A stretch of DNA of 64,000 bases, from NCBI RefSeq assembly GCF_027052235.1, contig NZ_JALUFF010000057.1, forward strand, positions 1 to 64,000. The letters are read 5' to 3'. A program made the translations under genes and the position numbers. The DNA comes from Thermococcus sp. (lineage in GTDB: Archaea > Methanobacteriota_B > Thermococci > Thermococcales > Thermococcaceae). Below are positions 3,865 to 7,111 of this stretch, in pieces (positions within the stretch are counted from its first letter, which is position 1; each line of letters starts with the position of its first letter). Below the pieces are notes generated by a model. It ran no database searches and had not been told where the DNA came from. It saw only the letters and a program-made list of their open reading frames with translations.

Positions 3865-5850
3865 TTAGCGTGAAATTCTGAACGTTACGGTGTACAAGAA
3901 CAGGGACATTAGTAGTAGCCCAAGGAACGACTCAAGCGAGACCAGAAGTTGTGGGATATGAGTTGTGAGGTTAGGCTGAATGTTGGCATATCCAAGGCTT
4001 GTGAAAGTGATAACGCTGTGATAGAGGTAGTCTAACCAGTCCGCAGGTATGGACTTGCCGTTCACGACCTTCACTATCCCGTTGGTGAGCCTGAAGAGGA
4101 GCGTAAATATCAAAATCGTGAAGAGTGAGAACATCAGTGGTCTCTCTGGCTTTGTTCCGTATCCTGTTAAAACCTTTAGGACAAGCCAATCGTAGAGGTA
4201 AGCCCTGAGTTTGCTTTTCAATCCTTTTGTTAACCTCAACTTTCGCCTGACCTCATTTCTACGGTAGTGCATCTGGAGGGCTTCCTCAAGCTTGCCGTTC
4301 TGGAGGTAAAAGTAATAAAGCTTGTTATACACCTCGTAAGAAGCATTATAAAGTTCTTGTATTGTTCCAAAATTAGCCTCATATAAGATCTCTTCCTTAT
4401 GTTTCTTGTATTCTTGTTGGAGTTTAATCTCAAGAAGTGTTGCCTTAGACATTGATTTTTTATTATTTTTCCTAAGATTAAAATGCTTTCTTAGTCTTAT
4501 TCTTTTAGATTTCACGAACATGCTGGGCTCTTTCAGAAGTCCTTCTCTTCGATCAAATAATATAACCTTTTTTCCATCTGCCACATAGTATACATACCCT
4601 TCATTCATTAGGTCATTAGCTAGTTTTTTATCAATTCTTTTGAGTTTTTCAAAATCAATTAATTCGTTTCTCTTCAATAGCTCTGATGCTATTTCGTTTA
4701 TGTCGGTGATAGGATCATCATTAAAAATGTGTGCATCTCTAAATGTTGGTGTTTGATCTACATATGACTTATAAAGATTTGAATACAATAACTCCGCCTC
4801 TGTAAGTTTAGTTTGAGAGTTCATTAATACAAAATAGAGATCCGCACCTTTAAGCTTTACATTTTCAAGATTGGCACTTTCTAAATTTGTTCCCCATAAA
4901 TCAGCTTTTTCGAGAGTTGAATACTTAAGATTAGCTTTTTTAAGGTTTGTTTTTGTTAGGTTTGCGTTTTTAAGATTTGCTCTCATGAGGTCTGCACTTT
5001 GGAGGTCTACTTCTTTAAGTTCTGCATTTTTTAATTTTGCATTTCTAAGCATAGCTTGGCTAAGGTTGACTGAATTGAAATAAGTACTTTCAAAAATTGC
5101 AGATTCAAGATTGATTTTTTTAAGAATTACATGTTCTAACCTTGCTTTTTTAAAATTAACTATTGAAAGATTAGAGTTATCCTGGAAGTTTACCTTATCC
5201 AAGTGAGCATTTTCAAAAGTTGCACCTTTGAGACTAGTTCCTATAAAATCAACCTGAATAAGATTAGCATTTCTAAACTTTGCGCCTTCGAGCATTGAGT
5301 TTTCAAAAGTCACTCTTTTAAGTGTTGTATTCTCTAGCTCTGTCCCCCTAAGACTGCAATCCCTTAATGTTACATCTTTAATTTTAGCATTGTTAAGTTT
5401 TGTTAGATCAAAGGATATTTTTTGAAGTTTTAAATTTTCTAAAATTGCATCCTCAAGATTTGTCCAGTCTAGATTAGTATTTTCAAATTTTACATCTTTA
5501 ATGACGGCATTTTTTAGTACTGCACCTTTAAGTCGAGCATTTCTAAGATTAACTCCGCTGAGATCTGAATCCTTGAGATTTGCCCATTGAAGCTTGGTAT
5601 TTTCGAAATTTACCTTTTCAAGTTTTGAATTTTTTAGACTTACCCATCTAAGGTTAAGGTCTTTGAGATTGGCATATTTGAGGTATATTCCAAAAAGTTC
5701 ATGCCTCTTCAACTCCTCAATCTGTTCCTTGGTTGGTCTTTTTCCATCCTCTGGTTTATGCCAGTAACAATACTCCTCCCCCGGTAAAGCTTCAAGGGGG
5801 CATTCCCAGAGCTTACCGTCAACTTCCATTTTAAATTTACACTTTGGCAT
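3865..5850 (-). CDS. Pentapeptide-repeat protein with zinc-binding head and K+-channel-like pore tail
   Basis: This 661-residue chimera has four parts. (1) Residues 1-40 form a putative zinc knuckle (C4, C17, C28, H31, ending CYWH). (2) About residues 50-360 are pentapeptide repeats, A(D/N)LXX-like, expected to form a right-handed quadrilateral beta-helix. (3) A charged helical region (about 380-565) reads like TPR-type helices. (4) The C-terminal ~90 residues have a hydrophobic helix, a pore-helix/filter-like HSVITFTSLGYANIQP and a final membrane helix, the layout of a two-TM ion channel. The central part is conspicuously AT-rich against its neighbours. Start ATG follows GGTGAGATAG. Ion selectivity is unproven: TSLGYA differs from TVGYGD. 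Confidence 0.85.
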   Translation of the reverse strand: MPKCKFKMEVDGKLWECPLEALPGEEYCYWHKPEDGKRPTKEQIEELKRHELFGIYLKYANLKDLNLRWVSLKNSKLEKVNFENTKLQWANLKDSDLSGVNLRNARLKGAVLKNAVIKDVKFENTNLDWTNLEDAILENLKLQKISFDLTKLNNAKIKDVTLRDCSLRGTELENTTLKRVTFENSMLEGAKFRNANLIQVDFIGTSLKGATFENAHLDKVNFQDNSNLSIVNFKKARLEHVILKKINLESAIFESTYFNSVNLSQAMLRNAKLKNAELKEVDLQSADLMRANLKNANLTKTNLKKANLKYSTLEKADLWGTNLESANLENVKLKGADLYFVLMNSQTKLTEAELLYSNLYKSYVDQTPTFRDAHIFNDDPITDINEIASELLKRNELIDFEKLKRIDKKLANDLMNEGYVYYVADGKKVILFDRREGLLKEPSMFVKSKRIRLRKHFNLRKNNKKSMSKATLLEIKLQQEYKKHKEEILYEANFGTIQELYNASYEVYNKLYYFYLQNGKLEEALQMHYRRNEVRRKLRLTKGLKSKLRAYLYDWLVLKVLTGYGTKPERPLMFSLFTILIFTLLFRLTNGIVKVVNGKSIPADWLDYLYHSVITFTSLGYANIQPNLTTHIPQLLVSLESFLGLLLMSLFLYTVTFRISR

Positions 5851-5954: not shown

Positions 5955-6356
5955 TTACCTTAACTTTATGCTGACCTCAACCTCCTCCACCTTTCCCTCC
6001 CTCAGAACGTACGCCCCGTAGTTGCCTCTCTCGTCAACTATCAGCCACACCACCGGCCAGAGTTCCATCCCCTTTAGGTCCCTCCCGCTTGGCCTTGGCG
6101 GGCACTTCAGGTGGGAGTGGAAGATTCCAACAACTTCGAGCCCCTTCTCCTCAGCCTCATCCAGTGCCTCGACCATCTCAACGGGCTCCATCTCAAAGGC
6201 GACCGGCGAGGCCAGGCGGTTCCTCACGAACCTGACTTCTCTGACCTCAACGTCCTCACCGGCAACACCAAAGAGGAAACCGCAGATTTCTTCCTTTGAG
6301 GTTCTGGCCCTTTCGATGACCATTCCAAGGTCTTCCTGCCGTATTATCAGCCTCAT
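5955..6356 (-). CDS. JAB1/MPN (JAMM) metalloprotease
   Basis: This 133-residue single-domain protein carries the full JAMM zinc motif: an N-terminal Glu (E22/E23 in KEEICGFLFG), then H80-S-H82, S90 and D93 (HSHLKCPPRPSGRD). The family cleaves isopeptide bonds of ubiquitin or archaeal SAMP conjugates; a Pyrococcus homologue (JAMM1) is known as a desampylase. No ribosome site precedes ATG 6356. A TATA-like element about 25 bases upstream, shared with the divergent microprotein gene, suggests a leaderless mRNA. Family is certain; the SAMP substrate is inference. Confidence 0.9.
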   Translation of the reverse strand: MRLIIRQEDLGMVIERARTSKEEICGFLFGVAGEDVEVREVRFVRNRLASPVAFEMEPVEMVEALDEAEEKGLEVVGIFHSHLKCPPRPSGRDLKGMELWPVVWLIVDERGNYGAYVLREGKVEEVEVSIKLR

Positions 6357-6421: not shown

Positions 6422-6571
6422 ATGAAGTGGGAGGTTACCCTTCACGGCGGGAAGCACCACGGGGAAAAGCTCATGATAGAGGCTGAAACCGTGGACGAGG
6501 CAAGACGCTTAGCGGTTGCCGAGATGAGGAGAAAGGACGCCAGGGTCTTTGAGATGGAGAAGGTTGAGTGA
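6422..6571 (+). CDS. 49-residue microprotein A (paralogue of the protein at 6716)
   Basis: ATG 6422 follows GTGGTGGCCCT. The 49 codons end at TGA 6571. The predicted fold is two short strands, a helix (ETVDEARRLAVAEMRRK) and a last strand (RVFEMEKV). Aligned without gaps to the 49-residue product of 6716-6865, 13 positions are identical (M1, E15, A27, R29, L30, A31, E34, R37, A40, R41, E44, E46, V48). Hydrophobic strand positions are also conserved. It is therefore probably a tandem paralogue. No known domain is recognised; the function is unknown. Confidence 0.75.
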   Translation: MKWEVTLHGGKHHGEKLMIEAETVDEARRLAVAEMRRKDARVFEMEKVE

Positions 6572-6660
6572 TTGTTTCCGCTCTTTGTTCCAAACCCATT
6601 CATCGATGCACCTTTTCCTTAGCCGATTTCAGTTCATTGATGTCCATTTTGGGACAGCAA

Positions 6661-6671
6661 CGTTTTTAAAG
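6661..6671 (+). promoter_or_regulatory. TATA box of microprotein B
   Basis: CGTTTTTAAAG matches the common Thermococcus TATA form. It predicts transcription start near 6690-6697, inside the downstream operator. Confidence 0.65.
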
Positions 6672-6687: not shown

Positions 6688-6704
6688 TATCACTACTGGT
6701 GATA
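6688..6704 (+). promoter_or_regulatory. Thermococcales glycolytic motif (Tgr/TrmBL1 operator)
   Basis: TATCACTACTGGTGATA is a perfect TATCAC-N5-GTGATA palindrome, the known site of Tgr (T. kodakarensis) and TrmBL1 (P. furiosus). Its position downstream of the TATA box corresponds to the repressing arrangement of sugar-uptake and glycolytic genes, which are derepressed by maltooligosaccharides. I found no second perfect copy in the window. Confidence 0.8.
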
Positions 6705-6715
6705 TGGTGGTGGCC

Positions 6716-6865
6716 ATGCTTGTCAGGATAGTTTACTACCTTGAGAACACCCTCCCAGAGGAGAGAATAGTCGTGACCAATGATATTGGGAAGGCTGAGA
6801 GGCTCGCCAGAAAGGAAAAGGAAAGGCTGGGCGCGAGGGAGTACGAACTTGAGTGGGTCGCCTGA
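6716..6865 (+). CDS. 49-residue microprotein B, predicted sugar-regulated
   Basis: ATG 6716 follows GGTGGTGGCC. The product begins MLVRIVYYLENTLPEERIVV, continues with a charged helix (IGKAERLARKEKERLG) and ends EYELEWVA. It has the same length as, and 13/49 ungapped identities to, microprotein A. It lies just downstream of a perfect Tgr/TrmBL1 operator, so expression should rise on starch or maltose. The stop directly abuts the convergent gene at 6866. No known family recognised; a regulatory or adaptor role is speculation. Confidence 0.75.
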   Translation: MLVRIVYYLENTLPEERIVVTNDIGKAERLARKEKERLGAREYELEWVA

Positions 6866-7111
6866 TTAGCTTTCCCCTTCTATTTCGATTATCTTGACGT
6901 TCACAGGGAGCTCGCCGAGTTCTTCGGCGACCCTCTCCGCTGCCCTGTTCGAGCGGGCGAGCATGACGAAGGCAACATCGCCCCTGTACCTAGCCTCCGT
7001 GAAGCTTATCACATCGCCTCTGGCTATGCCGTAGCCTATCGCTTTCCTGGCTTCATCCTCGTATTTTCCAACGAACTTCTCCGGCACGCTCACAAGGACG
7101 CCGTAAATCAT
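6866..7111 (-). CDS. Small conserved hypothetical protein (81 aa)
   Basis: The product starts MIYGVLVSVPEKFVGKYEDE and ends PVNVKIIEIEGES. It alternates strands and helices (beta-alpha-beta-beta-alpha-beta), compatible with a small ferredoxin-like fold, with no cysteines or membrane segment. The start follows GGGGGTGATTGA, which overlaps the stop of the upstream membrane-protein gene, so the two are translationally coupled. It was not assigned to any family I know. Confidence 0.7.
   Translation of the reverse strand: MIYGVLVSVPEKFVGKYEDEARKAIGYGIARGDVISFTEARYRGDVAFVMLARSNRAAERVAEELGELPVNVKIIEIEGES

Follow-up and report, generated by a model that had tools for sequence, protein, structure and literature searches.

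A predicted Tgr operator precedes a conserved 49-residue microprotein gene in Thermococcus

Tgr (TrmBL1) is among the best-studied regulators in the archaea, and its regulon has been described as consisting of enzymes, transporters and a few regulators. What, then, does a Tgr-type operator signify when it lies in front of a gene for a 49-residue protein that belongs to no known family? This question is raised by positions 6688-6704 (forward strand) of a Thermococcus DNA stretch of 64,000 nt, the whole of which is termed the window here. The sequence at this site, TATCACTACTGGTGATA, is a perfect palindrome and, as a preliminary description had claimed, it matches the Thermococcales glycolytic motif (TGM), TATCAC-N5-GTGATA, with no mismatches. 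It is the sole perfect TGM in the window, where the single other site with two or fewer mismatches has two. The match, together with conservation of the motif before orthologous genes, marks the site as a predicted Tgr/TrmBL1 operator.

A TATA box, TTTTTAAA, is found at about 6663-6670 (+), and a T/A-rich block some 20 nt before the TGM is conserved among orthologues. From the position of this TATA box, transcription is expected to start at about 6692-6695, that is, within the palindrome. The proposal that the operator occupies the repressing position, downstream of the TATA box, is thus supported, the spacing being conserved and the start site predicted. The TGM ends 11 nt before the ATG of the microprotein gene (6716-6865, +), and in this interval there is a Shine-Dalgarno-like sequence, GGTGGTGG (6706-6713, +), which falls in a conserved G-rich block; most orthologues have GGGGTGAT or GGAGGTG between TGM and ATG. 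A longer, 53-residue product starting at the in-frame ATG at 6704 was considered and rejected, because the frame upstream of the ATG at 6716 is not conserved. The next gene, an 81-residue open reading frame at 6866-7111 (-), is convergent and ends the transcription unit. The promoter therefore serves the 49-residue open reading frame alone, in agreement with the earlier view that the operator controls only one tiny protein. The frame itself is under purifying selection, with a median dN/dS of 0.12 over 242 pairs.

Profile searches detected the microprotein in 62 Thermococcaceae genomes, representing four of six genera, and gave no match in any other genome of the phylum sample. For 61 orthologues the upstream region was read in the orientation of the gene, and the best TGM match in it had no mismatches in 19, one in 25, two in 12, three in 2 and five in 3. 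Conservation of the operator-gene pair in other Thermococcales, which had been put forward as a check, is accordingly strong: 44 of the 61 promoters carry a TGM with at most one mismatch and 56 one with at most two, nearly all of them at -28 to -36 from the ATG. One genome of the set, which we take to be T. kodakarensis KOD1, has the operator TTTCACTCGGAGTGATT, two mismatches away from the consensus. Shuffled upstream regions gave matches with zero or one mismatch in 0.01% of cases and with two in 0.3%, and only background matches were seen in the promoter of the neighbouring gene of the same fold and in DNA downstream of the microprotein. The motif is not recognisable in the promoters of three of the 61 orthologues (L021, L058 and L066), which constitute natural test cases for a loss of sugar control.

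Could the palindrome be a by-product of translation signals, arising by chance from a Shine-Dalgarno-like GGTGAT in an A/T-rich leader and read by no regulator? In this lineage GGTGAT naturally serves as the ribosome-binding sequence, and a TGM half-site overlaps it; at tpi, too, a half-site is located where a ribosome-binding site would be. The separate Shine-Dalgarno-like stretch between operator and ATG, however, implies that the GTGAT half is not simply a ribosome-binding site. Moreover, when column conservation was computed for 38 non-redundant promoters, each position of the upstream half-site TCAC proved to be kept in 33-37 sequences, almost as well as the other half. The motif also keeps a fixed distance from the gene, standing at -32 or -33 in 48 of the 61 orthologues, and the shuffle control was negative. 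A chance origin was rejected on these grounds and we regard it as very improbable indeed. In the same 38 promoters, information content is highest on TCAC and GTGATA and drops in the middle of the N5 spacer, and a conserved Y and R pair flanks the spacer centre. This flanking pair is also present in the motif derived by ChIP-seq for TrmBL1 of P. furiosus (PMC4706686).

The site is one of only two perfect TGMs in the whole 1.89-Mb genome, which contains a further 14 with one mismatch, as against two sites with at most one mismatch for a reversed control pattern. Across 94 Thermococcaceae genomes there are between none and five perfect TGMs per genome, and the control pattern is present in just four, once in each. 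At least 9 of the 14 other TGM sites examined in the host genome mark sugar-metabolism genes. Among the genes preceded by a TGM are those for ADP-glucokinase, the maltodextrin-binding protein MalE, FBP aldolase/phosphatase, GAPOR, maltodextrin phosphorylase, TPI, enolase, a GH57 branching enzyme and alpha-amylase. At the FBP aldolase/phosphatase gene the TGM (L008:512-528) precedes the TATA box, which is the activating arrangement and would be expected of a gluconeogenic gene.

The host genome also encodes the presumed reader of these sites, a TrmB-type regulator of 340 residues that has Y49-D50 and whose gene is followed by that of glycogen synthase. The same arrangement exists in T. kodakarensis, where Tgr is TK1769 and its neighbour TK1768 (PMC4158304, PMC12628685). 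Tgr is present in 70 of 74 good-quality genomes. The tpi promoter, a proven kind of target, served as a reference; promoters were located with a partly reconstructed TIM probe that matched the host's own gene at 98%. In nearly all sampled genomes tpi carries a one-mismatch TGM, and in the same Thermococcus genomes it has the TATA-TGM-ATG layout seen at the microprotein gene. In both sampled Pyrococcus genomes that have no Tgr, tpi is without a TGM. The tpi site differs in being nearer to the ATG, in having the left half TAACAC and, mostly, in departing from the consensus at one position, so that the microprotein operator is the closer match.

A further reading accepts the operator as real and assigns it to another TrmB-family member or to an unrelated regulator, which would make the signal a different one. 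The host genome does contain a second TrmB-like regulator, adjoining an ABC-transporter ATPase, and a TGM-like site before the RuBisCO gene of T. kodakarensis is believed to serve some other repressor than Tgr (PMC12628685). Against this, the match to the TGM is complete, including the Y/R flanks, and exceeds that of tpi. The microprotein is, in addition, found in none of the four good genomes that lack Tgr and in 55 of the 70 that have it (p = 0.003, uncorrected for kinship, three of the four Tgr-less genomes being of Pyrococcus type, so that the cases are not independent). We therefore judge another reader to be improbable.

On the sequence comparisons, it is very likely that the site at 6688-6704 is a genuine Tgr operator and that it brings the microprotein, as a single gene, into the glycolytic regulon. 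With the regulon of TK1769 and PF0124 it shares the palindrome, the position overlapping the transcription start, the presence of Tgr and the Y/R flanks. It differs in what is controlled, as the targets of that regulon are enzymes, transporters and transcription factors of known role, whereas here the product is a 49-residue protein with no family. By analogy with the proven behaviour of TGMs in the same position, Tgr binding and induction by maltodextrin would be expected. When maltodextrin is absent, Tgr would occupy the TGM, which overlaps the expected transcription start, and obstruct RNA polymerase. On the appearance of inducers of the maltotriose type it would leave the TGM, and the microprotein would then be produced alongside the glycolytic and amylolytic enzymes. 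Of the earlier suggestion that a microprotein belongs to the sugar regulon, membership is strongly supported by the conserved operator-gene pair. That the protein might tune a transporter or glycolytic enzyme, as was also suggested, is conjecture. A tie to maltodextrin uptake was considered and discarded, since several genomes without a close MalE-type binding protein keep the gene.

What might such a protein do? Pfam and NCBIfam contain no match to it at E values up to 1. AlphaFold2 predicts, with confidence (pLDDT 94), a strand-strand-helix-strand mini-domain. A comparison of 39 different full-length sequences showed M1, R4, Y7, P14, E16, A27, A31, A40, E44, E46 and A49, among others, to be invariant; judged from the alternation of residues in the strands, the charged R4, E16, E44 and E46 are probably exposed. 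A fold search with the model gave no significant match (best E 0.32). A sequence search of solved structures returned FtsH at E 0.0007, a helix-level match of 19 residues that was judged spurious. The phage T4 antitoxin Dmd and the T7 protein Gp2 resemble the model in their small fold (TM scores of 0.77 and 0.64 over the query), an analogy only, as there is no sequence relation and the E value of 2.4 is not significant. Both are small inhibitors, and each works by attaching to a target protein.

Ribosomal and nucleic-acid-binding proteins often contain small mixed alpha/beta domains, and the weak fold matches of the microprotein include an archaeal 50S ribosome chain. The microprotein might thus be a nucleic-acid-binding or ribosome-associated protein whose production rises when cells grow fast on sugar, and not a modulator of enzymes. 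The family is, however, neutral to acidic in most of its members, with a median net charge of 0 and a median pI of 6.2, and has no conserved basic face. The near-neutral charge argues against general DNA or RNA binding, and we consider such a role unlikely.

The genomic neighbourhood points in another direction. Immediately upstream, at 6422-6571 (+), is a gene for a second 49-residue protein, without a TGM. It aligns with the microprotein at an hhalign probability of 90% over 32 columns, its model has the same order of strands and helix, and it is probably a paralogue. This protein is conserved in 53 Thermococcus genomes and is sometimes unlinked from the microprotein. Before it lies a gene for a JAMM metalloprotease related to archaeal desampylase (5955-6356), and further upstream, at 3865-5850, the window encodes a 661-residue protein that abounds in pentapeptide-type repeats and has a C-terminal membrane part resembling an ion-channel pore.

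Across genera the genes stand in the order MobB, JAMM, (paralogue), microprotein, with CDC48 usually next, and in the deeper genera, where the paralogue is missing, the microprotein gene directly adjoins a divergent JAMM gene; there the TGM might also affect the JAMM gene. It could be argued from this arrangement that the microprotein acts with the desampylase-like protease, the 49-residue protein of the same fold and CDC48 in protein quality control, the operator setting only the timing. Yet in some genomes, the presumed T. kodakarensis among them, the gene lies away from JAMM and a TGM-like site is kept, and it is the paralogue, nearer to JAMM, that is without a TGM. A role in quality control seems unlikely to us.

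A modulator that acts by binding proteins is the role we favour for the microprotein, tentatively and with somewhat less than even confidence, on the evidence of its modelled shape and conserved residues. It would be a soluble protein with a rigid beta-beta-alpha-beta domain, whose charged face of invariant R4, E16, E44 and E46 would dock on an enzyme or a regulator that the switch to sugar requires. A broader and more doubtful proposal is that this is a Thermococcales-specific family, duplicated in tandem into a sugar-controlled and an uncontrolled copy, and that its product is a post-translational effector redirecting central metabolism or protein turnover. SgrT, PirC and CP12 are very small, carbon-linked regulators of a transporter or an enzyme, and they are bacterial or plastid proteins. 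The microprotein resembles them in size and in its predicted carbon signal, with no sequence relation and no demonstrated functional relation. If the proposal is true, an effector released by a sugar repressor would be an archaeal counterpart of small regulators of the SgrT or PirC type. That a conserved microprotein stands behind one of the TGMs best preserved in these genomes points to a level of control, as yet unexplored, over the switch between glycolysis and gluconeogenesis.

The gene is not universal among organisms with the regulator. About ten good-quality Thermococcus genomes with Tgr lack the microprotein, and in several good Tgr-bearing genomes of the genus it has been lost while the paralogue is kept. 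In the Pyrococcus genomes, including those with TrmBL1, no match to the microprotein better than chance level was found. The gene is therefore accessory and dispensable. The TrmBL1 regulon was mapped in Pyrococcus, where the microprotein is absent, and the idea that an orthologue might be present among the hypothetical proteins of the ChIP-seq targets of P. furiosus, the only species with such data, was rejected for the same reason.

T. kodakarensis is amenable to genetics, and its orthologue, with a TGM-like operator, makes the predicted control testable at once. This orthologue lies on the minus strand of KOD1 at about 1,020,769-1,020,915 and, from a count of genes as far as SppA, TK1164 (PMC4343526), and TK1160, a protein of 14.8 kDa (PMC4473059), is probably TK1159. 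No mention of it was found in the open literature, including papers that name genes from TK1159 to TK1164, or in the text of the T. kodakarensis primary transcriptome.

Finally, comparison of the 61 promoters revealed a second conserved element, upstream of the TATA box, represented in the window by GTTCATTGATG at 6632-6642 (+). Its consensus, GTTCATYRATG, is matched exactly in 20 of the 61 promoters and with at most one mismatch in 42, while the corresponding values for shuffled sequences are 0.1% and 3%. The distance from this element to the TATA box is roughly constant across genera, and the sequence may be the site of an activator. Another gene of the same genome, for an aminotransferase (L137), has a perfect palindrome, GTTCATCAATGAAC, directly before its TATA box.
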